From Mytilus galloprovincialis (taxonomy: Eukaryota > Mollusca > Bivalvia > Mytilida > Mytilidae): a stretch of DNA of 64,000 bases. Both the position numbers and the translations under genes were made by a program. The notes below the pieces were generated by a model that did no database searches, was not told the DNA's origin, and saw nothing but the letters and a program-made list of their open reading frames with translations. The DNA is taken from positions 61,337,793 to 61,401,792 of the forward strand of contig NC_134840.1 of assembly GCF_965363235.1 (NCBI RefSeq). The letters run 5' to 3'. Below are positions 35,285 to 64,000 of this stretch, piece by piece. Every line of letters starts with the position of its first letter. The first letter of the stretch is position 1.

Positions 35285-35960
35285 AATAGGGAAAAATTTG
35301 ACAATGATTGAATTTAGTAGTGTCAGCCCTTTGATTATGACCCGTGTATATAGCAAAATCCTAAATACATCGTTTGGTGGTGCGCCTGTCAAATGCGGAA
35401 CGTACAGATAAGGTAATAGCTAACAGGTGAATATACTATTGGTATCGGTATCGGATTAGACCCGGAACTTGTTAATTATTGGCAATATTAATTACGTGGA
35501 AAACAAAAGGGTCTGGAGTGGTGTAATTTTTAATCTACACCATTGTCCTATATTAGTTATATATAGAGTGGTATAGGGGGAGGGTTGAGATCTCACAAAC
35601 ATGTTTAACCCCGCCGCATTTATGCGCCTGTCCCAAGTCAGGAGCCTCTGGCCTTTGTTAGTCTTGTATTATTTTAATTTTAGTTTCTTGTGTACAATTT
35701 GGAAATTAGTATGGCGTTCATTATCACTGGACTAGTATATATTTGTTTATGGGCCAGCTGAGGGACGCCTCCGGGTGCGGGAATTTCTCGCTACATTGAA
35801 GACCTGTTGGTGACCCTCTGCTGTTGTGTTTTTTATTTGGTCGGGTTGTTGTCTCTTTGACACATTCCCCATTTCCATTCTCAATTTTATTGATTTCTTT
35901 GATTTGTCGTTTTTACCCGATGACGGCTGACAAATTGGACCTCGTAATTTTAGTATTATA
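35285..35960 (-). mobile_element. Dispersed element interrupted by a retroelement tail
   Basis: The flanks 35285-35560 and 35895-35960 are reverse complements of parts of 53368-53690: they share GGTCCAATTTGTCAGCCGTC (as its complement), TTCCACGTAATTAATATTGC and CACGGGTCATAATCA. In this copy the sequence is split at TTAGTTATATA by the tail at 35565-35895. A third, partial copy lies at 35140-35265. Confidence 0.65.
35565..35895 (+). repeat. Retroelement 3' tail, inserted copy
   Basis: TATAGGGGGAGGGTTGAGAT, CTGTCCCAAGTCAGGAGCC and GAAGACCTGTTGGTGACC, ending CCATTTCCATTCTCAATTTT. It is the same tail that follows the retroelement ORF remnant at 58.76 kb, here truncated at its 5' side. Confidence 0.8.
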
Positions 35961-36159
35961 GATGTGCTTGAAAACATCCTGGTGTTGACAGACAGTGCCA
36001 ACATCACACACCAAACTCAAACAGCTGCACAGAGCATAGAGAAATCGTGGACGGCCAGTTAAAGATAAATCATAAGCACTAACTCTTCAAAGGAAAAAAA
36101 ACCAACAAGATAAAAGCATTTAACAACTGTAGATGCTATAGACTACGGTCAAAAGATAT

Positions 36160-40777: not shown

Positions 40778-41630
40778 CTAGAAAGAACTTGTGAATAAAT
40801 CTTTAAGAGTCACCAGAAAAGCTTCTTTATTTTGTCCATATATAAACTTATAAAGTCCTTTCATTCTTTCCAGATTACTTCCCCTTTTTGTGACACAAAT
40901 AACACTGTCGTCTGCTAAATCAGAAAAATCATGCAAAAGTGCAAAGTCAAAGACATGACAACAGGATTCAGCTGTCATCAAATGCTTGGATAAAACTTGT
41001 AGAAGGAATGTTTGTAGTCTATATACCAGGTATTTAATAGCCAATGAGAAGACTTCTAAACAATGATAGACATTTTCAATAGATTTATCACAGACCAAAA
41101 AGTGACCTGTAACATGACATTTGTCAGTACATTTATACAAGTAATGTACCAAATAACGAAAGGCGTAAAATGTTGTATCTTCTATAACTATTTCTTTTTT
41201 ATTGGCCTCTGAAAATTTCCCATGAAGCATAGCGGTGAACAAAGGTGACGATTCTGATAGTAAGTTTCTACAGCATATTAGTTTCTGGTTTTCAACTAAA
41301 AATACAACTTTGTGTGACACCTCAGCGCCATCAAATTTACATGCCTTAAATTCCTTGCTGATATCCATCTCAAATCCATTTAGACAATCTTCTGATTCAG
41401 GTACAATATCAACTATATCTAGACAATCTTCAGGTTCGTGAACAACATACTCCATTCTAAAACTTTTATCTTCACATTTCATCTGGAAATTGATCATCTT
41501 CCCAAGAAAAACCAAACCCTGAAGTGCTGATTGGTATTTAGGAGTATTAACTTTTTTATTCTGTAGAATATCGAAAATTTTTGTCAAAAAATGCATTTGT
41601 CTGAAGTAGTGTCCATGCATGCCTCTCAAC
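40778..41630 (-). CDS. ARMC5: BTB-domain terminal exon of ARMC5
   Basis: After TTTACAG the frame gives LRGMHGHYFRQMHFL. The BTB fold begins near VSHKVVFLVENQKL and shows the typical LLSESSPLFTAML, FSEANKKEIVIED and FRYLVHYLY segments. A helical extension runs to the stop, as in human ARMC5, where this domain binds CUL3. No domain is missing. Confidence 0.9.
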
Positions 41631-44600
41631 CTGTAAAGTATGAAATTTTCTTAAACAAAATATACAAAATTGTAAAATATTTATAACATAAAAAAATTAA
41701 ATATTAGTTTTTTCAATAAAACTCAAATTGGTGAAAACAAGAAAGATCCTACTTGATACATTGAACGACAGGTACTAAATATTGCTGATTTTTTTTTCTG
41801 GCACTCCAAGCTGTGTCATCAAAATTATTCAATACATGCAAGGACGTATATGTCCTTGATATATGGAAATGAATTAAAATGAAATTATGCTTATTGAAGT
41901 AGCCCTTTGTGTAGTACATTTTTATTACATTTACATGTCAAATTTTCACAAAAAAAGTTTTTTTTTTACAATTATATATAAATATAAGGAACATATATTC
42001 ATGTCTCATGCATGTATTGCTGAGTGTTTGTTTATTCTACATTGACTAGAGGTATAGGAAGTGAGGTGAGATCTCACAAAACATGTTTAACCCCCAACAT
42101 TTTTGCACCTGTCCTAAGTCAGGAGCCTCTGACCTTTGTTATGTCCTGTATGTTTTTTTTTAAATTTTGGTTCATTTGTGTGTTTCAGAGTTGAGTGTAA
42201 CATCCATTTTTGCTGATCTAGTGAACATTTTTGTTTATGGCCAACTGAAGCACATTTCTGGCTGTGTGATTTTTTGCTGTGTTGTAGACTCATCATAAAC
42301 CTGTCACTTTTTTAGCAATATTCAAAACATCGCAATAATTTCTGAATTTAAGTAATTGAAATTAGCAGTACCCTAAAAATCTTACCATAAAATATACAGC
42401 ACATCTACAGCTAACCATTCTCTAATTATGTCTGGATGTCTGTACACCAAACATTCAACTTCACCTCTACCAAAATGGCTGTCTGCCTGGATACACAGAT
42501 CTTGTAATAAAGTCAATCCAACTTGTGCATTAAAATAGGACTTTTCCTCAGTTGATGTCATGGTATTTTTCTCTCTGTCTGCAGCAGATCTTTTCCTTTC
42601 ATTTTTATCACTTGGAATGTTTTCAGAAGTGGAAAGTTTAGTTAGTGTATCAAGAAAAGAAAACTGTGAATTATTTCTGTAGCCATAGTGATCAGATCCT
42701 GATAATTTTCTTCTGTCAGTACATATCTTTACGTTTGATGTTTGAAGGATGCAGTTTTCAGTTTTAGAGAGCTTATTTATTTCATCTTCATATTGGTACA
42801 GGCATAACTTGTAATAAATCAACATAATAAATTTCATTTTCAGTAATTTCTCAAAGCACAGAGGGTTTTTGGCAAGTCTGGAGAGAATTCTGGCTGCTCT
42901 TGGTTGTGGATTATCAACTTTGTGTAAATAATCTAATAAGCAACAGACAGTTTCTATGGTAACCATGTGTTGACTAGGATCATTCATTTGTGATACACGT
43001 GACAACAATATTAATATTTGATTTTCAATTTCTTTAACATGTTTGGACGATCTCAGATCAGCCTCAAATGATACAAGCTTTCTTCTTTTTGAAGGGTTTT
43101 CTACATCAATGTCACTTTCATCATTTGACATCATACTCCTTTTTGTCCCAGTCTCAAAATCCTTTGTATCTGTATGGCTTATACTATCTCCATCTGTCAT
43201 TGGTTCCATAGTTGTCTCCCTTTTTGGCTTCTCTAATGTTTGATTAATTTTATCAACAGTGTGTTTGATTTCATTCATATCTAAAGTTTCTTCCATCTTT
43301 TTTTGTGTAATATTATCTGATAACAGAACATTGCATTGTCTTTTCTCTGATTTGTCATTTCTATCTTTAGAATTCTCATCTTCTATTTCATCATCTTCAG
43401 ATTCGCAACTTGAAAATTCTGCCTCATCTTGGTGAAATGGTACAGGTGATGACTCCATAGGACTTTCACATTTTTCTGGACTTCCACAGGAGTATGGAAT
43501 ACTACAAACCATGCCATAGTTTGGATCTTTATTAACAGTTGAAACAGAAAACCAATTTTCTGGAGTGCTTTCACAAACACTCCATGATGAACAACCAGGG
43601 CTACTAAATGAGAATTTGGAGGGACTTAAAGAATACTGATTAGAATTTGTGGGACTTTCTCCACTACTTTCAGAGTTACTTTTTGGTGAATTATATGAAA
43701 CAGTACTTAGGGGACTATATTGTGATGATTCTGTATCATTCTTCACAAATACCTGTTTACATTTTTCACCTTTGGTATATTGGTCAATGTCCCATGAGGA
43801 ATGTGGAATGTATGATGGACTGTCAATGCTGTAAACAACAGATTTTCGTTCTTTTTCTTTCTTTTCTTCCACCTTGTCTTCCTGACCCATTGTTTTCTTT
43901 TCTTTTACATTTCCCTTACATCTGTAGTCAACCTGATGTGGAAACTGATACAATTTTTTAAACATTTCTTGCTCTTTTAAAATTTCGTCATCCATTTTGT
44001 CTTTACTGATGAAAGTTGGAATCAGATCTTCTGCTTGGCAGACGTCACTTTTAAAATTGGCAACTCTTTGCAAATGACTGACCAGAACTTTAATCAAACC
44101 ATGATCGAGTAAAACTGTAATACCTGAATCGTCATATAGAAAACATTGTAAAGCACTGATGACTTTATCGTGTAGCCTACTGTATTCATCCTTGTTAAGA
44201 CATTCCAAAAATAATTGCAAAATTTCATTGTCACGTATTTTTATTCTGTTGACACCATCTTTACAACATATGCAAAGAATATTTAGCAATGTGGTTTTAT
44301 CAATACTATTATCTACATCATGAAAAATATCGAGAATTGTTTTGATTCCTCCAGCTGATCCCAAGCCAGCTCGAAAATTAGGCAGGTTTGACAGTCTGTT
44401 TATCACTGTAATGGACTGGTTGATTATTGCACTATCACTGTGAAGCATTAGGGACAGTATTTCTGGCAGGGCACCAGAACTAACAATTTGACTGGCAAAA
44501 CCTACAGAACAGCTGGAAAAGAAAATATACTGTTTTTAAATTATTTTCATGGGAAGTATATTTCAAAGCATATTTAGATAGTCACTCACTTTCATTTCTG

Positions 44601-47600
44601 TTAATTGGTGTGTTGATGCAAGTGAGTACCTCTTTTTTTAGAGAAGGTCTTTTATTTATTCGATAGAGGAATCCGACTGATTAAAAACAATAGTTATTGG
44701 ATTTTTTTCTTTATATAATGACTATGTTGTAGCAGATGTATACCAATCTGATGGGGAAAAAAGGATGTTGAACTTTATAATGAGGCAATATATGTGTGCT
44801 ATCTTGTTCATAAAAAAAAAAACTGCACTACAGATGAAGTTTCTGTGTTTAAAAATTTGACAACCACAGGCACTTTTAGAATTCCTAGTGTGAGACGAGA
44901 CATAAAATTTGTAAACAGATATAGGAAGATGTGGTGTGAGTGCCAATGAGACAACTCTCCATCCAAATAACAATTTAAAAAAAGTAAACCATTATAGGTC
45001 AATGTACGGCCTTCAACACGGAGCCTTGGCTCACACCGAACAACAAGCTATAAAGAGCCCCAAAATTACTAGTGTAAAAGCTCTTTTTTAGTAGCTAGTA
45101 CTGTTACTTCATCAGTCTATTGGAACCTTACCTTACACCAGAAATCTCATGAATAGTTCTTAATATAGAAAGCTTAACTTCTTCCTCTGAATCACTGAGG
45201 TGTTTAGCTAGATACCGAACAACATCATCCAATAGAATCTTCTCCATCTGTCTGTTGTTACTAACAAGCAACCTTAAATTCAGATAAAAACACATTTACT
45301 CATTTTTTTTCTTTTTTAAGCAGAATAAAATCTATGTGAATGTAGTTGACTTTGTATATATAATTCAGTCTTTTTTTCTGACATTATATGGACAAAAAAA
45401 CACTAAAAAAAAAGACAGTTTGTTGATAGGACACCATGCCCCACTAGCACATTCAAATTTACATGTTAAGTATAAAGTGCCTTTATAATTGGATCAAAAT
45501 GGAATTTGGCATACCACTTTCAGCACTGATGGCTATATTGTGTTGGCCAATTATTATATATAGTGTCTGACAGGGAGCATTTTTGGCCCTGTCCCATTTC
45601 AAGAGCCTCTGACATCTGACAGACAGACAGACAGCTTATAATATAATATTGAAGTGCTAATGGACAGACATACATGCAGACATACAGACTTATTTCTATA
45701 ATCCTAGTTTGTGGCACACCTAGAAATATATTTATTGTATCCATTATTATACCTTACTGTTCTGCTGTATGTCAGAATATTTTCTTTGGTTTTTGTAGAT
45801 TCTAGTAGTTTTCCAAGGGTTTCTGCAACATCTGCTTTAAGAATGGTTACAATATTTTCCTTTGTTAAAGCCAAGTTTGCCAGGGTCCTGGAACATCTAT
45901 TTTGTATACTCTCGGTCTTTGATTCAGCAAAAACATGTGCTATAAAAGAGAAGTAAAAGGAATTCCATTGCATATTCATTGTAAATAGTTATTTTGAGAA
46001 TAGTCCAAACTTCTGTGAACTGATAGAAACGCAATACTGTAAATTTAGAAATTATTGTGTGAATTTTTTTATTGCAATTTTTAGTTTTGTGATATTGAGA
46101 AAAAAATCTGTTTAATTCATATAAAAAATTTCAAAATGCGAGTTTAAATTATTGCGATTATAACCCTGTCGCATTTTTCGCTATAATAAAAACATCACAT
46201 AATTTCTGAATTTACAGTCCTCAAAAAACAAAACCAGCAGTGTTCTTACTCTAAAGCATACAATGATACATGCCATCTTTTTTTGTATACTCAAAATGGT
46301 ACAATCTTGGGCATTCCAAAACCTTCACTTACAGGTCGAAAAATTACATGTTTTCAATGATTCACCACCAAGAAAAAAAAAATCAAAGTTAAAAAAAATT
46401 GTAGATATTCTGTAGGATTGGCATATATGCTTCAGATTGGTGTTTGTAAACAATAGATATGAGTTTCAAAATATGCACATCATTACCAAGACTTAATTAG
46501 ATATTCTTCTAGTTTGAGTTTCAATTCAAAATGCCATGACAGATGGGGCTTGGCCAAACAATCTCTGGAATTAGTAACTCTAATAAGTGCCAATGGTAAT
46601 ACATGTACAATGTACATAGAGATTAATACATGACCTTTTCCATATCTGCCCAGGTATCATCCCGAGACCCCATATCAGCCTGAGACGAAATATACTATAA
46701 CATCACTACCTCCATATATATTTATCATAACATAGATCCGGTAGATCCTGTAAATTCATGATAAACTAGCATAATTTTAAAAATCTCTATCATTAGATTT
46801 AGTCATGTTTACATATTTTTTTTCAATAACAGCTGGTTCTGTATAAACAGATTTACCACTGGATCCAATACATCTTATTGTTTTTTTCCCGCTGCCAATG
46901 GACTTCATAAAAGTTCCCGTAAAATGTGACATCATAATAAAAAAAACTGACGCCACAATGGAAAAGTAAACAAATGATACCGGAAATAACTTGCATGAGA
47001 AGCAGATATGAGTTTTGTGCACAAGATGCCCCTGATATGGGTTATCAGCCTGGGTGGAAAATTATGGTTGTTTACTTCCGTTCATTACACATATGCAAAA
47101 GCTATCATATCAATGCTAAGTATATGATAAAACTACATATTAAATATCCTTGACTTATCATAAGTCATAATAGACTGATATAATGAAAACTTCAACTGTT
47201 GACACAGCTGCTGGAAACAGCATGTCTGATTTCACCTCTCCACTTTAAGGCAAGACATTTTTTCAATTTAACTTATGCACAATATTTCACATTGGACTAA
47301 ATTTACTTGTTTTACACAATGTTTAAGGTAACCTACTACATCACATACAAGCAAAAATATATGTATATCATCAGATTAATTTCTCAAATCATGCAAATCC
47401 ATACCTATTATTTCTATGCCACTTGATCTTCTTACCTGAATAAGAAAAAAAATACATTACATGTTTTTGCCTTTACAAGAAACATAGAAAGTCAACATCA
47501 TAGTACCACTATCATAGTACCACTTCAAGACCTTTGCTTCTTACCCTTATATACAAATTTTGTAGCATGTTCCTATGAATAATGGTACATGTATGAGAAA

Positions 47601-49418
47601 AAAAACATAAATATGTTTTCTTTTTAGTTCATACATGTATACAGTATTTGAGTGGCTTTTTTTGGTTCTGTGTTTGATTTGTTATATCATTTCTAATATG
47701 GTAATAATTATTAGCTTAAGGCTGTGAATGGCTTTATAAAATATCAGTAATTGTGTTTTAACATGTTTGATGGAGCATTAAGCTGGTGTAGGTGTTCATG
47801 GTATTACAAGTTGTCTATCATATATGTAACACAATTGATGTTCTGGTAGTAATTGCAAATGTATGTAGGTGCTTGTCACTTCTGTGATATCTAGTAACTA
47901 TTTCTTATTATGTAGTACCCAGGTACCAGTATGTATAAAATTGAGAATTGAAACAGGCAATGTGTCAAAGAGAAGACAACACAACCAAAACAACCAGGTA
48001 AGTCAAGTATATAAATCAAGACAAAAATATCATATGGTGTTCATGGTATTTTATGTGTGTTTTTTAGGACTCCTATAATCTTTGTCGAGGGTGGTAAAGG
48101 GTTATTTTCGTGCAACGTGATCGCCGTTTTTTATTTCACGTTCAACGTGTTTTTACTTTTTTATTTGACGTTCAGTCGTGCAAGACGGGTGCCTCGTTCA
48201 ACGTGTTCTGCTTTTTTAATTTTACGTGCATCGTGATTTTCAAAGTCTTATTTTGCGTGCTCGGTATTTTTCAAATAAAATTCAAACACTAGGCAGGGAT
48301 CGTCAAGAAATACTTTTTTAAAAGCCGTAAACCAATTATATCATAAATGTGTATACTAAATCGGGAATATCAAGTAAAACAAATAGTTAATATATACAAG
48401 AAGGCAGTGACTCAGTCACAAAAGGTTCAAATAAAAGTATTTATTTTTCGTGCAACGTTCATTACAGAAATTATTTCACGTTCAATGTGAAATTATGTCT
48501 TATTTCACGTTTTTTTTGTGCAAGGACCCCCCCTTTACCACCCTCTTTGTCTGTAAGGTGGTGAAGACACCAACTGACTGCTCAATACACAGGGGCTCGT
48601 ATCATAGATATTTTCAGGTGGAAATATATATGCAAGTCTACTGGTGTGCATTATACATTGTGTTAATGGCAGACAGGGGTGTGTATCATAGCTATATATA
48701 GATGTATACTAAATTATCCAGGTGGAAATATATGCCAGTTGACTAGTATGCATTATAAATTGTGTTAATAGCAGAAAGGGGCGTGTATCATAGATGTTTT
48801 CGGGTGGAAATAATATATGCCAGTCGACTTGTATACATTGTGTTAATAGCAGACAGGGTTGTGTATCACACAATGTCTCTCAAAGTTATCAATCTCAGTA
48901 TGTCTTTAAGAGTACTGTAGATGTTTTGGGGTGGAAATATATATCAGTCGACTGGTATGTGTTATATATTGTTGGTATGTGTTATATATTGTTAACTAAT
49001 AGCGGTATCATAGATGTTTTGGGTGGAAATATATGCCATACCAGTTGACTGGCATATAATTCAGCTCAAAAAAATCTATGATAGAATTCACGCCCTGTGT
49101 TTTACATGCTTAATATCTGTCATATGAAATAACCCCACTGCACAGAGGGTATTTTACCATATTTCTGGCATCATTGTCCATACATAAATTTCCCAATGTA
49201 CTTAAAATGACATCTACACTCTTGCTATCAGTATCACTTTTCTGTAATATTTGTAAAATCTTCGGGATACCTCCGTTTTTCAACAGATAGCTTATCCCTT
49301 CTTTGGTTTTCAGCACTTTTTTACGGATTTCAACAAGACAGTTGAATGTTTCTTTCTCTGAAGAATTGTCTAGTTTCAAAATGAGTTTCTGAATAGTTTT
49401 TCTTGCTTTTTGGTCCAT
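40778..49418 (-). CDS. ARMC5: ARMC5: armadillo repeat-containing protein 5, 6 exons, 1199 aa
   Basis: Minus-strand exons in order: 49158-49418, 47405-47435, 45753-45939, 45132-45272, 42386-44512 and 40778-41630. They sum to 3600 nt, exactly 1200 codons with the TAG stop. Residues 1 to about 330 are helical armadillo repeats (for example GGIPKILQIL, LSTLGNLCMD, RTLANLALT, GGIKTILDIF). The middle is a Ser/Lys-rich linker with an NLS-like SKRRKL. The end is a BTB domain (about residues 1020-1090). This order, ARM then C-terminal BTB, is diagnostic of ARMC5, which in vertebrates is the CUL3 adaptor that ubiquitinates RPB1. Human ARMC5 is about 935 aa, so the linker is longer here. The start is the first ATG (GGCATGG) after an in-frame TGA that lies beyond the inserted element at 49513. 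Confidence 0.92.
42045..42300 (+). repeat. Old retroelement tail copy in ARMC5 intron 5
   Basis: TTGACTAGAGGTATAGGAAG, CTGTCCTAAGTCAGGAGCC and TTGTTTATGGCCAACTGAAG match the tail family with many substitutions; the terminal CATTCTCAATTTT is lost. Confidence 0.7.
42386..44512 (-). CDS. ARMC5: Large central exon of ARMC5 (ARM end and disordered linker)
   Basis: 2127 nt without a stop. It starts in an armadillo repeat (SSGALPEILSLML). A Lys/Glu block (about 43845-43920) and a Ser/Pro-rich region with many SP sites (about 43400-43800) follow, then an acidic run, an NLS-like SKRRKL, and a second helical ARM-like part (about 42400-43040) that ends at ILW. The donor ATG|GTAAGA lies at 42385. The SP-rich linker suggests regulation by proline-directed kinases; this is inferred. 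Confidence 0.9.
44925..45085 (+). repeat. Mussel dispersed repeat in ARMC5 intron 4
   Basis: AGGAAGATGTGGTGTGAGTG, ATGTACGGCCTTCAACACGG and ACAAGCTATAAAGAGCCCC. It lies about 50 bp beyond exon 4, inside the intron. Confidence 0.8.
46036..46218. mobile_element. 183-bp MITE in ARMC5 intron 2
   Basis: The ends ACTGTAAATTTAGAAATTAT and ATAATTTCTGAATTTACAGT are reverse complements with one mismatch. A partial end of the same family (CGCAATAATTTCTGAATTTA) is at 42331-42351. Confidence 0.75.
47405..47435 (-). CDS. ARMC5: 31-nt microexon of ARMC5
   Basis: It is flanked by TTCTTATTCAG and GTATGG on the minus strand. It encodes VRRSSGIEII plus the first base of an Ala codon. It joins ARNM (exon 1) to AHVFAES (exon 3) and completes an armadillo repeat. 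Without it exons 1 and 3 are out of frame. Confidence 0.8.
47938..47995 (-). repeat. Inverted end of the retroelement tail in ARMC5 intron 1
   Basis: AAATTGAGAATTGAAACAGG and AATGTGTCAAAGAGA are the complement of the tail terminus with several substitutions. Confidence 0.55.
48087..48545. mobile_element. 459-bp TIR element with TTTGTC target duplication
   Basis: The termini GAGGGTGGTAAAGGG and CCCTTTACCACCCTC are perfect 15-bp inverted repeats. Both are flanked by TTTGTC (48081-48086 and 48546-48551), which fits a 6-bp target duplication. The interior repeats CGTTCAACGTG-type palindromes (TTTCACGTTCAACGTG, CGTGCAACGT). No ORF of note. It sits in ARMC5 intron 1. Confidence 0.8.
48585..49060. 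repeat. Degenerate tandem minisatellite, about 5 units of about 100 bp
   Basis: The block GGTGGAAATATAT, CAGT(C/T)GACT, TGTGTTAATAGCAGA and GTATCATAGATGTTTT recurs about five times with indels, within ARMC5 intron 1 close to exon 1. Confidence 0.7.
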
Positions 49419-49503
49419 GCCTATTGTAAAATTGTCAAATAGGGAGGATATTTCATGAGGCAGCAGTTTTTTGTTGATATTCGGTTTTCCGTGGATTATC
49501 TCC

Positions 49504-49512
49504 CTTACCAAG
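49504..49512. repeat. Left target-site duplication of the 3.25-kb foldback
   Basis: CTTACCAAG, repeated exactly at 52759-52767. It lies about 90 bp upstream of the ARMC5 start codon. Confidence 0.85.
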
Positions 49513-52500
49513 GGGAAGGTCTATTAACAGGACAGATAAAACCAGGACAGTTATTTTCGATACGTTTTTATCTGTAACGTTTGTTTTACCCAACATATTG
49601 TTGAAATTTAAATTGTATAATAAAGAACATGGTATTTACTTATATTATTTGTAAAAAAATTAAAAATGAATAATAATTAAGTTAAAAAAATCTGCCAGGA
49701 CAGTTTAATTTTATGAAATAAATGGCTGAAATTGCCGAGAAAAGTTTACTTATAATTGAAATATTTTCTCCAAAACAACTGTCTGGCATTATATTTTTGT
49801 ACAATTATAAAGATTATGAAATATTCATTCTAAAAATCTATGATTTAATATTTTTTTCAGCTTTTAAAGGTAAAAAAAACTGCCAGGACAGTAGCCTTTC
49901 ACGTTGGAAATTTTGTTGAAATTATTTCAAAATACAAATACAAAGTTAAATATCTTCTTCAAAATAAATGTCTGGTAAACAAATGTTAGTTCATTGGAAA
50001 GTTTAGAATATAAGCTTTATGAAAATATAAAATTATATGACTTTTTATGTCATTAACACCCAAAAAATCTGCCAGGACAGTAGCCTACTCCGCTAAATTT
50101 TAAGGAAAAAATGGCTGAAATTGTCGAGAAGAGTTTACCTATAATTGTTATATTTTCTTCAGTACAACTGTCTGGCATACTATTTTTGTATGATTTTAAA
50201 GATTATGGAATAATCTTTCTAAAAACCTATGATTTAATATTTTTTTCGTCTTTTAAAGGTAAAAAAATCTGCCAGGACAGAAGCCTTTTACGTTAGAAAT
50301 TTTGTTGAAATTTGTTCAAAATCAAAATATAAAGTTTAATATCTTCTTTAAAATAAAAGTCTGGTAAACAAATTTTAGTTCATTTAAAAGTTTGAAATAT
50401 AAGCTTTATGAAAATATAGAATAATATGGACATTTATTTCCTTAACGCCAAAAAAAATTGCCAGGACAGTAGCCTACTCCGTTAAATTTCTGAATTAATT
50501 GCAAAAATTAACAACGCAATTATTTTTTTTAAATATAATATTGGAATAGTTTCTTTTTTGCGATTGTCTAAAGTACAATTTTGATACTACCATTAAGTAA
50601 AAGCTAGACCCAATCATAAAATTAAAAAAAAAAAGTGAATAAAAAAATTTGCCAGGACAGTTACTTATTATGTCTCAACTTGTGGACAAATTTGTTTCAA
50701 ATCAAAATCGAAAGTTGAATAGATTATTACTTTATGTTGTTATAATTCGTTGTTAAGTTTTAGCATTAAATTTTGGGAAAAGATAAAAATATTCATTCGA
50801 TAATAGATGAATTTCATAAAAAGTGTCCCATGAGTCGTCCTATAGCTAAATATTTAGTTGGCACGTGCTAAACTTAACGATCTGTTATCGAATCTGTGTA
50901 TTTGTATATTCTGTCACGTCAACCGTAAAGTGAGTGTGTGGTAATGAAGATATTTAGCTTTAATTTTAGGAAAACTAATTGATTTTATATTTAAAGATAA
51001 AATTTAATGCAATAGATTGTGGGATATTCGCAATTGCAAATGCTCTATAATTTTGTTTTTACAAGTTTTTCATGTTGGGTACATGTAGAACAACTAGAAC
51101 TAGTATAGATTATCTCGTGATTTTTTTTTTTTTTTTTTGAAAAAGGTTAACTAGTGTTGTGGAATGTACTGAATTGTGACTGTGCATGGCAAATTTGATT
51201 CATTAGAAAACATGTAAAGGTGTAAATTGCAAAAAGAAGTTAAAAAATGCAACATTTGGAAACTCTTCAGTTTTATGTAAGAGGATAAAAAAGTGACACT
51301 TTCCTGTGCTCTAAACACATTACTTATTAGTGAATAAACACCTTTTGAGTATTTGACACCAATCAGTGACTTTGAAGTTTTTATTACTGTCAAAACATAA
51401 TTCCGATATATATCTTCTGCCTTTGATACAATGAATAGAAATCGAATTAAATCAACAAATAGTGTTTTAATAACCACACCAATATAATTATGTTTTCTAG
51501 AAATATTCACTTTAATGACTATCACGGATAAATTTCAAACTGAAAACTTTGAATAGAATAAAAAAAATCTTTGAGAATTCTTCATTTCTTCCTATGTAAT
51601 AGTACTGTCCTGGCAAATTTGTTTTTAATTTGTAGTTTTATTTTTAATGATTTAGTCCTAATTATCATTTTAAAAAAAGCCAGATAAGTTAATAAATATA
51701 CTATTTTATTTATGATAAAAAATAATGTTTATTTCTGCCATTTATAAAACATGTAGCATATTAGGCTAATGTCCAGCTGATAATTTAAACGGAGTAGGCT
51801 ACTGTCCTGGCAGATTTTTTTGTCGTTAATGAATTAAATGCCCATATCATTTTGTATTTTCTCAAAGCTTATATTCTAAACTTTTAAATGAACTAAAATT
51901 TGTTTACCAGACTTTTATTTTAAAGAAGATATTAAACTTTATATTTTGATTTTGAACAAATTTCAACAAAATTTCTAACGTAAAAGGCTTCTGTCCTGGC
52001 AGATTTTTTTACCTTTAAAAGACGAAAAAAATATTAAATCATAGGTTTTTAGAAAGATTATTCCATAATCTTTAAAATCATACAAAAATAGTATGCCAGA
52101 CAGTTGTACTGAAGAAAATATAACAATTATAGGTAAACTCTTCTCGACAATTTCAGCCATTTTTTTCTTAAAATTTAGCGGAGTAGGCTACTGTCCTGGC
52201 AGATTTTTTGGGTGTTAATGACATAAAAGGTCATATAATTTTATATTTTCATAAAGCTTATATTCTAAACTTTCCAATGAACTAACATTTGTTTACCAGA
52301 CATTTATTTTGAAGAAGATATTTAACTTTGTATTTGTATTTTGAAATAATTTCAACAAAATTTCCAACGTGAAAGGCTACTGTCCTGGCAGTTTTTTTTA
52401 CCTTTAAAAGCTGAAAAAAATATTAAATTATAGATTTTTAGAATGAATATTTCATAATCTTTATAATTGTACAAAAATATAATGCCAGACAGTTGTTTTG

Positions 52501-52758
52501 GAGAAAATATTTCAATTATAAGTAAACTTTTCTCGGCAATTTCAGCCATTTATTTCATAAAATTAAACTGTCCTGGCAGATTTTTTTAACTTAATTATTA
52601 TTCATTTTTAATTTTTTTACAAATAATATAAGTAAATACCATGTTCTTTATTATACAATTTAAATTTCAACAATATGTTGGGTAAAACAAAAGTTACAGA
52701 TAAAAACGTATCGAAAATAACTGTCCTGGTTTTATCTGTCCTCTTTTTAGACCTTCCC
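49513..52758. mobile_element. 3.25-kb foldback element at the 5' end of ARMC5
   Basis: The ends are GGGAAGGTCTATTAACAGG and the complement of GGGAAGGTCTAAAAAGAGG. A 9-bp duplication, CTTACCAAG, flanks both sides (49504-49512 and 52759-52767). The arms (about 49513-50490 and 51780-52758) are nearly identical and in exact mirror register: every matched pair of landmarks sums to 102271, as do the two outer ends, so there are no net indels between the arms. Each arm repeats CTGCCAGGACAG about every 190 bp. The 1.3-kb spacer has no recognised gene. TIR and 9-bp duplication suggest a Mutator-like or hAT-like non-autonomous element; the boundary could shift by one base. Confidence 0.9.
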
Positions 52759-52767
52759 CTTACCAAG
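52759..52767. repeat. Right target-site duplication of the 3.25-kb foldback
   Basis: CTTACCAAG, the second copy. The 38 bp that follow, before the next element's duplication begins at 52797, are original flanking DNA and hold the in-frame TGA that precedes the ARMC5 start. Confidence 0.85.
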
Positions 52768-52805
52768 ATCTGACTGAAGCCCCCAAAATAGTCTCACTTA
52801 TTAGC

Positions 52806-54002
52806 GGGAGGGTCTAAAACGCGGAAGTGGAAAACGCGGAAGTAAAAATTGGGTCTACTATAACTAATATCTCTGGAACCTCTAAAGCTAGATTGACAAA
52901 TAAAACTGATTTTGAAAGCTAATATAATAGACTATTAGATCAAATTAAAACATAATATATTTAGATATGCTTTTTTACCGAAAAGTTGACCGGAAGTCTT
53001 TCTTAGCGTGACTCTGGCAACACATTTTTGAACATTAAAACTTAATTTCCTGAAAAATCATATAACCCGGTCAAAATCTGTAAATTGATTGTTAAAGAAA
53101 ATTTAGTGAATAATAATATGATATAAAGAAAAATATGAATACATTACGTAAAAAGGGTAAAAAGTTGACCGGAAGTCACCCTTGTATAGAAATGATGAAG
53201 TAAAATTTTCAACTTTGAACTAAAATTCACAAAAAAATAAAGAGGCCGGTCAAAATCAAGAACATGATTCTGAAAGACAATTTAATGACAAATAATATGA
53301 TATAAAGAAAAATATAAATACATTACGTAAAAAGGGTAAAAAATTGACCGGAAGTCACCCTAGTATCTATAATACTAAAATTACGAGGTCCAATTTGTCA
53401 GCCGTCATCACGTAAAAACGACGAATCAAAGAATTCAAATTTATATATAACTAATATAGTACAAAGGTGTAGATTAAAAATTACACCACTCCAGGCCCTT
53501 TTGTTTTCCACGTAATTAATATTGCCAATAATTAAGAAGTTCCGGGTCGAGTCCGATACCAATACCAATAGTATTCAGGATTAATATGCTATATAGTATT
53601 ACACGGGTCATAATCACAGGGTTGACACTACTTAATTGTCAAATTGTTACTTATTGTAGTATTTTAATCAGTTAGACTTTCTAAGATAACAATACGAATA
53701 ATAAAATCTGGACTAAAATAAGGCGTATAGGTACAGTTTTCAATTTGTTAGCGAGTTATATGCTTTTTCGTGAATTTAAGTTTTAATATTCAAAAATGTG
53801 TTGCCAGAGTCGCACTAAGAAAGACTTCCGGTCAACTTTTCGGTAAAATAACATATTCAAATATATATTTTAAATGTTATCTTATAGACTATTATATAAG
53901 CTTTCAAAATCAGTTTTATTTATTAATTTAGCTTTAGCGGTTCCAGAGATATTAGTTATTTTTCACTTCCGCGTTTTCCACTTCCGCGTTTTAGACCTTC
54001 CC
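52806..54002. mobile_element. 1.2-kb sister foldback element
   Basis: The ends GGGAGGGTCTAAAACGCGG and CCGCGTTTTAGACCTTCCC share the terminus of the neighbouring 3.25-kb element. The flanking duplication is CTTATTAGC (52797-52805 and 54003-54011). The arms are about 250 bp, with GCGGAAGTGGAAAACGCGG near each end. Inside, GTTGACCGGAAGTC recurs at 52985, 53164 and 53343 (spacing 179 bp). A separate repeat is nested at about 53368-53690. No gene. Confidence 0.88.
53368..53690 (+). mobile_element. Dispersed repeat nested in the 1.2-kb foldback
   Basis: It begins TATCTATAATACTAAAATTA, includes GGTCCAATTTGTCAGCCGTC and TTCCACGTAATTAATATTGC and ends CTTTCTAAGATAAC. The same sequence, inverted and interrupted, is at 35.29-35.96 kb. 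Its position between arm and arm shows that it entered after, or travelled within, the foldback. Confidence 0.7.
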
Positions 54003-54008
54003 CTTATT

Positions 54009-54062
54009 AGCGACAAGAAGAAACATATTAGCGACAAGAATCTATTTAGCGACAAGAAAACA
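54009..54062 (+). repeat. Short direct repeats AGCGACAAGAA
   Basis: TTAGCGACAAGAA occurs three times with spacings of about 22 and 18 bp, immediately beside the right target duplication of the 1.2-kb foldback. A diverged unit (AACGACAAGAA) lies at about 54139. Confidence 0.6.
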
Positions 54063-54865: not shown

Positions 54866-56963
54866 CACGGCCGACACTCGGCTAACCGTGAGATTGGTCG
54901 GTTAATCTATATTGAGTATACGGCTATATGGGCGACTGGTCTGTTAATCGGGTTGGTTATACGTCTGTTAAGAGTAAAACGCTTAATTTAATGTTAAACT
55001 CTATTAAATATGCAGATTTTTGGCATGTTATAAGAACCAAATCAAAAAAAGAAAAGTGTCTGACAAAATGATATCTATCATAGAACATTTTGCACTTGTA
55101 AAAACATTTCTTAGTCTGCACAGTTTTCAATAAAACTAAAAGGCGTCGCGCAAGTATGTAGTATTTATGCTTATACACATAGCAATTTTTTTAATAAAAG
55201 GCGAAACAAACAAATTTAGATATCATTTAAAGGACAAACAATAGTACTGTGGTTCTAAAAAATAAATTGACATTAGTAAATATTTCATAATTGTTAAAAA
55301 AAACGTGAATAATACCACGTTTTAGTGAAAATTATGGGAATAAAGTCTGTTAATGGGTTGGACAATTGAAATTGTGTCAGTTAAGAGTTATTTAGCCACG
55401 ACAATAATTTTGCTACCTTTATATTTTCCCCTTGAAAAATTTAGGAATGAGATGTTCCTGAGTAAACAAAAATGACAATACGGTGCCACAGTATCCTAGA
55501 AAGAGCATTTTATTTTGACTTTCTTTGCATTTTATTGAAGGGTGTGTCACTTCAATATAGCGTGATATGGATTGGCCTCTGGAATATGCATGAATTTTTT
55601 ATTGACGTTTTCAATCAGCCTTAATTTTTGTGTCTGTACGAAGTAGCACGTTCTCAATTCCGACTGAAAGTGTCTTTCTAATACAACACAGCGTACATAT
55701 AACGTGTTCTCGTTCACATATGAACATGATATTTGTCACTGGACGTTAAACCCTAATTCGTCAGCATCATCCAATTGGTTCTTTTCTTCTATTACTTAAT
55801 CATATGTTGTTTACAAATCTCTCTAAAGAAGTAATTGGAAAGGAGCGAATGCAGCTACATTTGGTTATTTTAAGTTTCAAAACATTTTATTCCGTTAGTT
55901 CCTTTCTACATAAGTGCAGAGGAGAACTACAGTTGACTATGGTGGCCGGTGAAGTCCATATCGCGTTTTCGCGGTTTCGCCTTTCATATTCTATAGGGCG
56001 AAAACGTGAAATCGCGAAAAAGCGAAATCGCGAAGTCGAAAACGCGGAAACGCAAAGTCGAAAACGAGAAATCGGTTTCGCGTTTTCGCGTTTTCGACTT
56101 CGCAATTTGGCGTTTTCGCCATATAACATATGTAAGGTGAAAACGCTAAAACGCAAAATGGCATTAACCTGCCACCATAGTTGTCCGCATGTAAACTTCT
56201 AGAATTTGTCACCAATATAAGTACATCGCAATCCGTTACTGTTTCAACAGCCATCGGTGTTTCATGTGTGTATTATTAAACAAGTATTATTTTTCTATCG
56301 TTTTTAGCAATGTATCACTCTCTACTGTCCTTATATATTATTCTATATTCTGCGTTTCCATCCAGATTCTCGTGTATACCATGAGGATCCGGATTGGGGT
56401 TATTGTTTATTTCTGTATTCTTTAAATTGTTATGTAATTTTTTTCTACATGTTTCATTGCTCATGTGTTGTTTTCGTATATTTTAGCCGCTCGTCTTGAG
56501 CCTACTCATTTGATCCGATAACACCCCATATAGCAATAAAATTATACTTTTATTGCCATTCATAATTCTTAACAGACCAATTAACAGACCGGGTTGTATA
56601 CATCCGACCCATTAACAGACCAGGTTTTAAACAAAGATTGATTAATGTCACCAAAATACAGATTTTCGTGTAGATATTCACACAATGATATCAATATGGT
56701 TAACAAACATAATGCCTTTCTTTTTTCGATGTTCAAAATATTGAATGCAAGTAAATTTAAACAATGTGTCATTTTGTGTACATTTTATGTGTGTAAAATG
56801 TGTATAAATTTATTGATGAGTAACCCGCCTTTTCAATTTATAGATCGATAACACCTGATTAACAGACTTTAGCCAACCCGATTAACAGACCAACCGCCGA
56901 TATAGCCGCATATTCAATATAGATTAACCGACCAATCTCTCGGTTAGCCGAGTGTCGGCCGTG
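54866..56963. mobile_element. 2.1-kb TIR element with about 95-bp terminal inverted repeats
   Basis: The ends CACGGCCGACACTCGGCTAA and TTAGCCGAGTGTCGGCCGTG continue as inverted repeats for about 95 bp with scattered mismatches (TTGGTCGGTTAATCTATATT, GGTCTGTTAATCGGGTTGG). AATAA flanks both sides (54861-54865 and 56964-56968). The interior has no transposase that I can recognise. A GCGAAAACG-rich element is nested at 55936-56181. It sits near the 3' end of the minus-strand LINE. Confidence 0.85.
55936..56181. repeat. CGCGAAAACG-rich palindromic element
   Basis: It is bounded by ACTATGGTGGC and GCCACCATAGT. The interior is almost entirely built from GCGAAAACG, CGCGTTTTCG and TTTCGCG words in both orientations, so reading frames are open on both strands. 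These frames are composition artefacts. Its CpG density is far above the surroundings. Confidence 0.75.
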
Positions 56964-57129: not shown

Positions 57130-60100
57130 CATAAATCATAAGTATCGTGTAAGTATTTTTAAAAATATTGCTAAGTTTTTGTAAAGTTCTACATGACAGA
57201 ATGTTAAAAGCTGTATAAATTTGTACTCCGTTGGATTTGCAGTATAATATTGTGGCATATATTTATTTCTAAGCAGTTTTATTTCCTGTTTTTGACATTT
57301 GAAAAGATAATGAAATTCATCTCCTATACCATTTCAACAGAAATGACAAATTCGCGCATTTTTTGGTATTCCAGACCATCTTCCAGTTTCTACAGGAAAT
57401 TCCTGTTTGTAATCTGAATAAAATGAACCTCTTGAAGAGTTATTCATTTGTGAAAACCAATGTTGGATAAATTGATCCTTCAGTTTTTGTGAAATAATGT
57501 TCTTTAAACCCAATTTATCCAATGGAAGTTGATTTTGCCAAATAAAACTAATTCCATTTTCGTCAAATATGGATTTAACGTACGTAATCCATTTAAATTT
57601 TGTGGGGTATTGAAAATGTAATTTGAGTATTAATTTATACATAATTGAAGATAACTTGTTATTCTCCAATAATAAACTATTCCAAAAACAACACCATTTT
57701 ACGTTTAACAATAGTTTCCAAAGGGAATCTTCCGAGTTCCCCATACACCATATAATTTGGTGTACTGCTTCTTAATTTTAAGATGTTTTTGCAAAATTGA
57801 AAGTGTATTTTCTCTAGGCTATCTTTACTTTCAAATCCCCATACCTCTGAAGCATATAATAAAACAGGACTAACCAATGAGTCAAAAAGTTTTAGCTGCA
57901 AATCGATGGGAATACATATATTTTTTATTTTTCGGTATAAAGCATACAAGGATTTCTGTGCTTGATCATGATTTTTTTTCGTGCAGTACAAAAGCTACCG
58001 TTGTAATTGAAAAGTAACCAAAGGTAGAAGTAGGAATCAACTATTTCAATGTTTTCTCCATATATCATAAAATTCGGATTTCTTTTTACTAAAAATCACT
58101 GCTTTAGTTTTGCTTGTGTTAATCTTAAATTTCCATTTTTTACAATATTCTTCAAAACATACAAGGGTTTTTTGTAATCCTTCTGCACTTTCAGACAATA
58201 GCACAGTATCATCTGCGTACAATATAAGAAACAATTTAACATACATTTGTAATGATTCCAAGCACATATTTGAAATATTATCTAGACTTTCTATATTATT
58301 TTCAACAAAATAACTTTCTAGATCATTTAGGAACAAAGAAAATAAAAAAGGTGATAAATTTTCACCTTGTTTTACTCCTATGTGAGATATAAAAAATTCG
58401 GAAAATTCATTTCCTTTCTTGACACATGTTTTTATATTTTGGTACATATTATATATCACATTAAATATTTTACCTTTAATGTTTGATTTTTGCATTTTTT
58501 GCCACAATCCTGATCTCCATACAGTGTCAAAAGCGCTTTTAAAGTCTATAAAAGTGCAAATTAGCTTTTTAACAAATGAAAAATATATAGTAATTAAAGA
58601 GTACAATACAAATATATTATCAACAGTAGAGAAGTTTTACTAAAGCATGCATTCAATGTGATTCCTCTGTACATTTCGAGATCAATTCTTGATCCTTTAT
58701 TTTTAAATATAGTAATCATGATTCTTTATATATTCATTTAAAATTTCATCACTGCCTGAAGCTTTGCCATTTTTTAAATTCGTAACAACCTTTATAAAAA
58801 CATTTACTAAATTTTATCATCGGTATAAGGACATCATTCGTAAATATAGCTCAACAGACAGACTTCTTATACGTTCAGCTATTTCACATCCAATTTTTTA
58901 TGGAAATATTCTTTATAAAGCACAAAGGTGTCAGTATTCACCTCAAAAATTAACAAAACCTTTGAATAGACTTATTAAGAAGGGATATAGTTACGATACT
59001 GTTGTCAGGTCATTAAAGATTGCATATTTTAGCGTTAATATTGCTTCACTTATAGGGTCTTTGCATCGGAACTAAACACATAACACGGGTTATGTTCTTC
59101 TCATATATGTTACATGATGGTATGATACTAAACCCCTAACGGGAAGGATTGTGCCTGATGTTCATATGATGAAATCATAATCTTTTAGTCAATTTAATTG
59201 AAGTCTGGAGCTGGCATTCAGTTAACTGCTAGTAGTCTGTTGTTATTTATGTATTATTGTCATTTTGTTTATTTTCTTTGGTTACATCTACTGACATCAG
59301 ACTCGGACTTCTCTTGAACTGAATTGTAATGTGCGTATTGTTATGCGTTTACTTTTCTACATTGGCTAGAGGTATAGGGGAAGGGTTGAGATCTCACAAA
59401 CATGTTTAACCCCGCCGCATCTTTGCGTCTGTCCCAAGTCAGGAGCCTCTGGCCTTTGTTAGTCTTGTATTATTTTAATTTTAGTTTCTTGTGTACAATT
59501 TGGAAATTAGTATGGCGTTCATTATCACTGAACTAGTATATATTTGTTTAGGGTTCAGCTGAAGGACCTCTCCGGGTGAGGGAATTTCTCGCTACATTGA
59601 AGACCTGTTGGTGACCTTCTGCTGTTGTTTTTTTCTATGGTCGGGTTGTTGTCTCTTTGGCACATTCCCCATTTCCATTCTCAATTTTATTTATAATTTC
59701 ATCTTCGGTTACTGGACAATTTAAAAATAACTCAACATCATCTGATAAGGTATCAAAGTCAAAATCTTGTTCGAAGCCATTTTCTGGCTCGACATTTTCA
59801 TTTAGGATTTTAAAATGATCATACAATGCTTTTAGAGATATATCGTCATGGACATCCTTTTTTTTTTACTATCATTTAGATTATTAAGGATTTTCCATAG
59901 AGCTTTTGTATCCTTTTTAGAAATGTTACGTAACTCATCAGCAGCCTTCTGTTGATAGTTTGTAAAAGCTTTATTTAATGTTATTTTATGTTCTTTACTA
60001 GCTTGTCTCATTTTACGTCTGTTTTCAGCTTTTTTCAAAAAACTATAACTCTTTCGAGCTTTATGAAATTTTTTTCTACTCATCGAGCATTTTCTATTAA

Positions 60101-60315
60101 ACCAAGGTTTAGAATTTTCATGTTTGTAAAAATGTTTATGCTTTTTAGTTTTCCCAAAAGTTTTTGCGACCGCATTTTAAAATTTTTTGCTGATATCTAA
60201 AACTATATTGTTTATATCATTTTGAGTTGCATCATTATTTACGGACAATTCGTCCAGTTTATTCATAACAGTGGCCAAAATACCTTCGGGATCACTATGA
60301 ATTCGATCCACGTAT
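57130..60315 (-). pseudogene. 5'-truncated, interrupted non-LTR retrotransposon (LINE) reverse transcriptase
   Basis: Read on the minus strand. 59640-60180 carries the linker before the polymerase (KPWFNRKC-like start, then LWKILNNLND, CPVTEDEIINKI). After an insertion it resumes with GKASGSDEILNEY (about 58765), TFIDFKSAFDTVW, the motif GVKQGENLSPFLFSLFLND and the catalytic LYADD (about 58200). The thumb-like part VSPVLLYASEVWG (about 57850) and GELGRFPLE follow. It closes at 57350-57130 with RICHFC, one stop, and GDEFHYLFKCQ. Several frameshifts and stops are visible, so it is dead. No endonuclease domain is present; the copy is truncated at 60315. Confidence 0.88.
58777..59690 (+). mobile_element. 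Plus-strand retroelement fragment inserted in the LINE
   Basis: An open frame from 58764 to 59075 ends a polymerase-like C-terminus (FYHRYKDIIRKYSSTDRLLI, ISHPIFYGNILYKA, LIKKGYSYDTVVRSLK). The family is not firmly recognised. About 300 bp of 3' DNA and the dispersed tail (59350-59690, ending CCATTTCCATTCTCAATTTT) follow. Removing the insert restores the LINE frame from INKI to NGKASGSDE. The fragment shows which kind of element the short tail copies come from. Confidence 0.7.
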
Positions 60316-61269: not shown

Positions 61270-64000
61270 AAGAATAAATGATAATTAAAAACCAATTGTT
61301 CAGAGAACAATTGAAAGTCTTTCCACACCAAAGAAATTTGATAAGAAGATAGTTTCTTCATACTGATGAGATAAATAATGGTTTATTTATGTTTTTGAGT
61401 GATAAAAGGGAGATAATATGCTACTTCCGGTGAAATAAATGTCACTTCCGGTCTCATATGATAGCTTATTTCACACTGATTCCAAAAATATATAGTTTCT
61501 ATATACTATTGTATGTAGAAGGGGAAATAATTGGCCACTTCCGGTTTGTTGGAAGTCATGTTTCGTCTCCAGTAATCAGTGTATGTATCTATATGACAAA
61601 ATATATTGATTCTGGGTACTTTGAGATGAAAAAATTGCAAAAAAGGCTACTTCCGGTTTTCTCAAGGTCACTTCCGGTAGTCATTTTTCAAGGTCATTTG
61701 TCATCTAATCTTTTGTACAAGGTCAAATGCCTTTCTTATGAACTTAGTTGAAGTAATAATCAAATAACCTCATATCAAGACATTTGAGGGGCAATAACTC
61801 CTATAAGATGCCATTAAATTTTATAAGACTAAATGTAGCATATCTTCATTACAGTAAAGCTGACATTTTGCACTTGTTCTTTAGTATGTATCTTTCAAAG
61901 TGTCGGAGAAAATGCTAAAACAAGCAAAAGTCACAATTGAGAACTTGACCTTGACCTTTGACCTTGACCTCATTTTCTAAGTTAGGACTTAGGGGACTCA
62001 AATAAAAACATTCCAGGGTTATACGGTTAACTGTTTATGAGATAAATGAACATACTGACAAATTTATTTTGTAAAGGTAGATAACTCCTATAAAATTTCA
62101 TCGAATCGCTTCGATCCAAATTAGCCAAAAATTCCTGAGGATGTAACGAACAGTTTGTAAAAAGAATTTTGTTGCTATCTTTTTTTGTTACGAAGAAGAT
62201 GCACACAGATCGTAAACAGTGAATAGGGAGATAACTCTTACAAAGAAAATGGTTCGCCTTAGCAGGGTGAAATTTAAAAGCGCATAAACTATACGATACC
62301 GTATAAGAAATATCTAAGCGACATATTGCGAAACAAACATTTATCGCAAGAACAAAATGTGGCGGAAAAAAAAAAAATAATAATTAAAAACCAATTGTTC
62401 AGAGAACAATTGAAAGTCTTTCCACACCAAAGTAATTTTGATAAGAAGATAGTTTCTTCATACTGATGTGATTAATCATGGATTATTGATATTTTTGAGT
62501 GATATAAGGGAGATAATATGCTACTTCCGGTGAAATGAATGTCACTTCCAGTCTCATATGATAGCTTTTTTCACACTGATTCCAAAAATATATAGTTTCT
62601 ATATACTTTTGTATGTAGAATGGGAGAGAATTGGCCACTTCCGGTTTGTTTGGAGTCATTTGTAGTCTTCAGTAATCCGTGTATGCATCTTTATGACAAA
62701 ATATATGGATTCTGAGTACTTTTATATGAAAAAATTGCAAAAAAGGCTATTTCCGGTTTTCTCAAGGTCACTTCCGGTAGTCAATTTTCAAGGTCATTTG
62801 TCATCTAACCTTTTGTACAAGGTCAAATGCCTTTATAATGAACTTTGTTGAAGTTATAATCAAATAACCTCATATCAAGATATTTCAGGTGCACCAACTC
62901 CTATAAGATGACATTAAATTGTATCAGACTAAATGTAATATATCTTCATTACAATAAGGTGGACATTTTGCACTTGTTCTTTTATATGTATCTTTCAAAG
63001 TGTCAGAGAAAATGCAAAAACAAGCAAAAGTCACAATTGAGAACTTGACCTTGACCTTTGACCTTGACCTCATTTTCTAAGTTAGGACCTAGGGGCCTCA
63101 AATAAAATATTTCCAGGGTTATACGGTAAACTGTTTATGAGTTAAAAAAACATACCGACAAATTTATTTTGTAAGGGTAGATAACTCCTATAAAATGACA
63201 TCGAATCGCTTCGATCCAAATTATCCAAAAATTCCTGAGGATATAACGAACAATTTGTAAAAGGAATTTTGTCGATATCTTTTTTTGTTACGAAGGAGAT
63301 GCACACAGATGACAAACAGTGAATAGGGAGATAACTCTTACAAAGAAAATGGTTCGCCTAAGCAGGGTGAAATTTAAAAGCGCATAAATTATACGATACC
63401 ATATGAGAAATATCTAAGCGACATATTGCGAAACAAACATTTATCGCAAGAACAAAATTTGGCGGAAAAAAAAAAAAATAATAATTAAAAACCAATTGTT
63501 CAGAGAACAATTGAAAGTCTTTCCAAACTAAAGTAATTTGGATAAGAAGGTAGTTTCTTTATACTGATGCGATAAATGATGGTTTAATTATATTTTTGAG
63601 TGATATAAGGGAGATAATATGCTACTTCCGGTGAAATTAATGTCACATCCAGTCTCATATGATAGCTTCTTTCACACTGATTCCAAAAATATATAGTTTC
63701 TATATACTTTTGTATGTAGAATGGGAGATAATTGGCCACTTCCGGTTTGTTGGAAGTCATTTTTAGTCTTCAGTAATCTGTTAATGTATCTATATGACAA
63801 AATATATGGATTCTGGGTACTTTTAGGTGAAAGAAATTGCTAAAATAGCTACTTCCGGTTTTCTAAAGGTCACTTCCGGTAGCCATTTTTCAAGGTCATT
63901 AGTCGCTTAACCTTTTGTATGAGGTCAAATGTCTTTATAATGAACTTAATTGAAGTTATAATCAAATAACTTCATATCAAGACATTTCAGGGGCACCAAC
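61270..64000 (+). repeat. Tandem array of a 1.1-kb unit, continuing past the window
   Basis: ATAATTAAAAACCAATTGTT recurs at 61281, 62380 and 63481 (spacing 1099 and 1101 bp). At least two full units and half of a third are present, about 90-95% alike by eye, with only small indels. Each unit has four or five ACTTCCGG motifs in its first half and a block of TGACCT half-sites in its middle (about 61955-61972 and 63045-63071). GGGAGATAACTC and GGGGCAATAACTCC-type phrases also recur. No long ORF is conserved between units. Confidence 0.9.

Follow-up and report, generated by a model that had tools for sequence, protein, structure and literature searches.

Two foldback transposons, which we call e1 and e2, lie side by side upstream of the ARMC5 start codon in the 64,000-nucleotide stretch of mussel DNA analysed here (the window). 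The larger, e1, spans positions 49513–52758 (3246 bp), and the smaller, e2, spans positions 52806–54002 (1197 bp). They are probably non-autonomous members of one lineage, moved in trans by a transposase that most likely belongs to a Mutator-like element (MULE). Such elements are a normal kind of mobile DNA, and we could not assign the pair to a named family. The initial annotation had described e1 as a foldback-type DNA transposon inserted upstream of ARMC5, and we agree: the ATG is 94 bases from the element. It had covered e1 and made no mention of e2, of the monomers in the arms or of the motif repeats.

The element e1 consists of a left arm (49513–50488, plus strand) and a right arm (51783–52758, minus strand), each of 976 bp, around a spacer of 1294 bases (50489–51782). 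The arms align over 976 bases with 22 mismatches and no gap. The resulting identity of 97.7% is not below the mark of about 90% named in the initial annotation, which had called the arms mirror-perfect. That term holds for register and length (the outer ends, 49513 and 52758, add up to 102271, with no indel in the alignment) but not for sequence. Three mismatches lie at arm positions 1–16, four at 17–881 and 15 at 882–976, so that identity is near-complete in the outer part and falls off inward. Past position 976, about 60 bases near a sixth monomer can still be aligned arm to arm (local score 55; mean 26 and maximum 44 in 300 mononucleotide shuffles), which suggests that the arms formerly extended to about 1.16 kb. 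Among the 17 inverted-repeat pairs of the window (at least 40 nt, arms at most 9 kb apart), that of e1 is the longest. The G+C content of e1 is 25.7% vs 31.8% for the window.

On both sides e1 is flanked by identical copies of the 9-mer CTTACCAAG (49504–49512 and 52759–52767), the clean duplication that had been proposed for it. A boundary at 49510–52761, which would lengthen the arms by 3 bases at the expense of the duplication, was rejected: the 9-bp repeat is then lost, and e2 independently ends in GGG. Very long inverted repeats with internal tandem repeats, as expected of foldback elements, are present in e1 (976-bp arms, 389-bp units), and the expected flanking duplication of fixed length is found at e1 and e2 alike, perfect at 9 bp.

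The arms are built from repeated units. The left arm opens with an 11-bp end, GGGAAGGTCTA, continues with a twin AGGACAG (element positions 17–23 and 32–38) and then runs into monomers of about 190 bp headed by TGCCAGGACAG. Two 389-bp tandem units, 87% alike (49707–50489, plus strand; mirror copy at 51782–52568), each comprise two such monomers. Monomer heads are located at element positions 181, 369, 558, 758, 947 and 1138 in the left half and at 181, 369, 558, 758, 947 and 1144 in the right half. All 12 heads carry the exact 11-mer TGCCAGGACAG, the string by which they were located. Among eight monomer rows, six of them from the left half and two from the right (pairwise identity 42–88%), it is the longest invariant run, with 11 columns; none of 10,000 column permutations reached 11, the maximum being 6. 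This supports constraint on TGCCAGGACAG, with an invariance that is partly built in because the monomers were located by the exact motif and the rows anchored on it. Non-circular support comes from the 389-bp period, since the sites fit it and it was found independently. The shorter GGACAG occurs at eight places in each half of e1 (16 in total), and CCAGGACAG has 14 copies in e1 and none in the rest of the window.

A scan of the window with the end of e1 revealed e2, 47 bp to the right of e1. The new element has arms of about 282 bp that are 84% alike, and it is flanked by its own perfect 9-bp duplication, CTTATTAGC (52797–52805 and 54003–54011). The 11-bp end GGGAAGGTCTA is common to both elements, with one mismatch at the left end of e2. 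Because e2 has the same end and a 9-bp duplication of its own, the ends and the duplication length of e1 are independently supported. The same two features suggest that a single transposase mobilised both elements. We also considered e1 and e2 as one larger composite. This was rejected, as e1 and e2 are each flanked by a separate duplication, with 29 unique bases between the two duplications.

The lenient scan, with the end of e1 as query, allowed at most three mismatches per end and at most one in the 9-bp flanking repeat. Among 275 end pairs in range it returned two, e1 (by construction) and e2, compared with a mean of 0.06 and a maximum of one pair in 200 dinucleotide shuffles. The strict form (at most one mismatch, exact repeat) gave two pairs in the window, e1 again by construction, and none in 200 dinucleotide shuffles. 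Within the window, e2 is the one relative found.

Beyond the outermost bases the likeness is limited. At their right ends, the two elements are identical in the first 14 bases and at 26 of 38 overall. Over all four end comparisons 22–26 of 38 positions agree, followed by 18–26 of 62 at positions 39–100. The right ends agree at 15 of the 27 positions 12–38, a modest value that was reached in 265 of 20,000 shuffles; the left end of e1 agrees with e2 at 12 of these 27. What is common to both is the layout. The motif CGGAAGT stands in e2 at element positions 17–23 and 32–38, the very positions of AGGACAG in e1, and it recurs on the left side of e2 at 179-bp spacing. Three GACCGGAAGTC sites (52988–53356, plus strand) are spaced in this way, with GGAAGT at element positions 187, 366 and 545; one further GACCGGAAGTC site is found in the right arm. 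In all, GGAAGT occurs at five places on the left of e2 and at three on the right. We regard the 7-bp motifs at 17–23 and 32–38, which recur in the arms of both elements, as candidate transposase-binding sites. The model for this role is Galileo, two of whose arm repeats are reported to contain further transposase-binding sites (PMC3688188).

Other repeats of the window touch on these features. The interior of e2 (53365–53574) matches two pieces within 35433–35963 at about 95%; the pieces are adjacent in e2 and about 325 bp apart near 35 kb, suggesting an insertion at 35 kb. The 8-mer CCGGAAGT, the repeated motif of e2, also belongs to a tandem repeat of about 1100 bp at 61280–64000 (motif at 61423, 62523 and 63624) which continues past the window end. 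Apart from those in e2, the window has 12 CCGGAAGT sites; all lie in this repeat, on the minus strand, and the repeat also contains TTGACCTTGACCT. A further tandem array (24900–25697, scanned at 24900–25700) has a 167-bp unit in 4.8 copies at 91% and may run further. An inverted-repeat element at 54866–56963 has arms of 94 nt at 93%, ends in CACGGCCGACACTCGGCTAA and is flanked by AATAA on either side, a possible 5-bp duplication. Its CAC ends and the 5 bp are reminiscent of Transib-like elements. At 510–956 there is an inverted repeat with arms of 154 nt at 89% that lacks a convincing target-site duplication. When flanking repeats of 4–10 bp were examined at these last two loci, neither had a 9-bp duplication.

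Neither e1 nor e2 has recognised coding capacity. Thirty-two ORFs of at least 40 aa overlap them, one of which is an ARMC5 exon and was set aside. The other 31 gave no Pfam match above the curated cutoff; two weak matches fell below it (DUF7733, E 0.072; SPO24, E 0.039). The longest ORF of the e1 spacer (51151–51534, minus strand, 127 aa) is longer than that in 498 of 500 mononucleotide shuffles and had no match in Pfam, NCBIfam or PDB. A gene in the arms of e1 was also considered. ORFs of 65–70 aa are repeated there in both tandem units, and the idea was rejected because dN between the copies (0.130) is close to dS (0.134), that is, without coding constraint.

No transposase family, MULE and Merlin/IS1595-type included, was detected among the 38 ORFs of at least 90 aa in the window (seven scanned at E 0.1, 31 at E 0.01). 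A sub-cutoff match of the first ARMC5 exon to the TnsA C-terminal domain (E 0.076) was taken as chance. Reverse transcriptase (58046–58636, PF00078, E 4.3e-26) was found within LINE-like ORF pieces at 57334–60176 on the minus strand. The window contains no RNA family at gathering thresholds. Patterns derived from e1 and e2 had no match in viral (three patterns) or prokaryote contigs (two patterns), where a mollusc element is hardly expected; a pattern for another window repeat likewise had none in viral contigs. A search of the open-licence literature for ‘foldback’ together with ‘Mytilus’ found no mussel foldback element among the papers listed, judged by title and start of abstract, although one may be catalogued elsewhere. 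With element strings of e1 and e2 as text queries in the same literature, no transposon paper was among the matches listed, judged by title, and strings of the other window repeats had no match.

The initial annotation had offered a young insertion, or arms kept alike by conversion, as explanations of the arm likeness. Youth could not be established from it; the second explanation has gained ground, because arm-to-arm identity (97.7%) exceeds that between the 389-bp tandem units within each arm (87%). At positions 17–881 the contrast is stronger still, with four mismatches in 865 bases between the arms against 87% between the units. This points to copying or conversion of the arms, which could have occurred before or after insertion; an exchange of arm sequences between copies has been proposed for Galileo (PMC3573991). 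Arm likeness is therefore no clock: e1 arms exceed their own tandem units in likeness, and e2 combines a perfect 9-bp duplication with arms that are only about 84% alike. The perfect duplications are compatible with recent insertion and are no proof of it. The comparison of e1 with e2 thus warns against dating such insertions by the identity of their arms.

We propose the following course of events. The transposase, most likely that of a MULE, would be encoded at another place in the genome and would recognise GGGAAGGTCTA together with subterminal motifs, AGGACAG in e1 and CGGAAGT in e2. Each element would have been cut and pasted into a 9-bp staggered cut, giving rise to the 9-bp duplications, in two separate insertions upstream of ARMC5. 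Tandem duplication of the ~190-bp monomers, each with a putative binding site, would have enlarged the e1 arms, whose outer ~880 bases may later have been equalised by copying or conversion.

As to the superfamily, MULEs are described as making duplications of 8–11 bp and as commonly having long arms (PMC6446971). The duplications of e1 and e2 are 9 bp, and their terminal inverted repeats measure 976 and about 282 bp, long repeats being usual, not universal, in MULEs. The Muta elements of mosquitoes are reported to have a short terminal motif, duplications of 8–9 bp and a preference for genic regions, and most of their long-arm families have subterminal tandem repeats of 9–15 bp (PMC5225508). 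A MULE is favoured because the 9-bp duplications, the long arms and the combination of terminal motif and subterminal repeats match, above all with Muta. In a survey of mollusc genomes, MULEs were recorded in all genomes covered, and the curated consensus elements included 39 MULEs vs three Merlin elements (PMC10294476).

That another or an undescribed DDE superfamily makes the 9-bp duplications, the foldback form being convergent as in Galileo of the P superfamily, we consider unlikely. Foldback-like structure is known from unrelated superfamilies according to the reports on these elements (PMC3169594, PMC3573991), and the lack of a transposase among the 38 longer ORFs of the window fits this explanation too. 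The choice is narrowed by the duplications of 9 bp at both e1 and e2. Galileo and P elements make duplications of 7–8 bp (7 bp in Galileo). Mobilisation of the same foldback elements by a Merlin-type transposase is a weaker rival to the Mutator-like reading, and decidedly unlikely. Merlin elements are described with 8- or 9-bp duplications, a conserved terminal 5'-GG and arms of 24–462 bp (PMC8101967). Both mussel elements begin with GGG and have 9-bp duplications, and the e2 arms lie within the reported range, but those of e1, at 976 bp, exceed it. Moreover, the mollusc survey contains few Merlin elements and, in its automatic annotation, has them almost only in cephalopods (PMC10294476), and a terminal motif followed by short subterminal repeats is described for the Muta MULEs (PMC5225508).

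Two further explanations would deny e1 and e2 the status of ordinary insertions. It is highly improbable that the sequence is no passive insertion but has been retained as a regulatory or structural component of the ARMC5 promoter. The two elements are found no more than 4.6 kb upstream of the ARMC5 ATG, and the GACCGGAAGTC sites of e2 resemble the ETS-factor consensus; the dN and dS of the arm ORF pair, which indicate freedom from coding constraint, argue against function at the protein level and are silent on regulation. An assembly artefact, in which a palindrome was joined falsely or haplotypes were collapsed, is hardly credible at all. Misassembly is a common hazard with long inverted arms that are nearly identical, but exact 9-bp duplications on either side of e1 and a distinct spacer between its arms would not be expected from such an error, nor would the occurrence of the same ends at e2, an independent neighbour that has a duplication too.

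Of the published cases that we found, the Tetris/DAIBAM pair of the Drosophila virilis group comes closest, likened here by its description (PMC4079207). Like e1, Tetris is reported as a non-autonomous foldback element with 8–10 bp duplications, arm tandem repeats of about 220 bp with 87% likeness inside complete copies, and a transposase that was not found, and DAIBAM is a smaller element with the same ends, as e2 is to e1. The differences, besides the host, are the repeat unit (about 220 bp vs ~190-bp monomers in 389-bp units) and the degree of kinship: most of the length of DAIBAM is 95% alike to Tetris (PMC4079207), while between e1 and e2 only the outermost 11–14 bp and the motif layout are shared.

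Among elements with an assigned superfamily, the MULEs Muta1 and Muta5 of Aedes aegypti resemble e1 and e2 in the short terminal motif, the subterminal tandem repeats (12 and 15 bp), the 8–9 bp duplications, the preference for genic insertion and the many non-autonomous derivatives with unrelated interiors (PMC5225508). Unlike these, the mussel elements have two end copies of the motif 15 bp apart and then one per ~180–200 bp, and no transposase was found for them. Tm1 of root-knot nematodes also has composite foldback arms, mostly 9-bp duplications and MITE-like members, and one member is reported to encode a Phantom-type MULE transposase; its end motifs are asymmetric, 7 bp long and outside the repeat, with repeats of about 14 bp (PMC3169594), whereas the 11-bp ends of e1 and e2 are symmetric. 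Galileo resembles e1 in that its arms are long and contain tandem repeats (of ~210 bp in one subfamily), and is unlike the presumed mover of e1 and e2 in that its transposase is of the P type (PMC3688188, PMC3573991).

The gene next to e1 was identified by its domains. ARM_ARMC5 (PF24768) matched three of the four gene ORFs tested, all on the minus strand: 42382–44535 (E 4.6e-42, the sole one above the cutoff), 45704–45988 (E 1.4e-15) and 49110–49520 (E 8.2e-07). The latter two stayed under the whole-protein cutoff, as expected because single exons were scored against it. The fourth ORF contains a BTB domain (40778–41650, minus strand), after the ARM_ARMC5 ORFs. A PDB search with two of the gene's ORFs gave no ARMC5 chain; one matched an engineered protein and the other had no match. 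The first exon (49158–49418, minus strand) begins with an in-frame ATG at 49416–49418 and presumably ends at a GTAAAA donor.

Read on the gene strand, both flanking copies of CTTACCAAG give CTTG/GTAAG, a donor-like sequence that ranks 58th among 6844 GT sites when scored with human weights. Together with an acceptor-like ACAATAG before the ATG, the copy next to the gene (CTTG/GTAAGG) would delimit a candidate 5'-UTR intron of 88 nt (49421–49508, minus strand). The AG that immediately precedes the ATG has an unremarkable pyrimidine tract, with 26% of all AG sites being equal or better. An effect of e1 on the transcription or splicing of ARMC5 is conceivable. One hypothesis holds that e1 duplicated a 5'-UTR donor, so that the whole element could be spliced out and the insertion be harmless. 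A transposase preference for CTTA, which both duplications would fit, would explain the donor-like site too.

A more far-reaching proposal, to which we give little credence, is that of a foldback lineage with modular ends, in which a fixed cleavage motif of 11–14 bp is combined with an exchangeable binding module and e1 was inserted exactly into the 5'-UTR donor and is spliced out. If true, the modules AGGACAG and CGGAAGT at positions 17–23 and 32–38 would have been re-amplified at 179–200 bp, roughly nucleosome length, and different foldback families would have exchanged their binding modules but retained a common cutting site. For the non-autonomous lineage that we prefer, confirmation of the e1/e2 pair genome-wide would establish a bivalve foldback lineage for which the ends, the length of the duplication and candidate binding sites are defined, and would offer a way to find its transposase.
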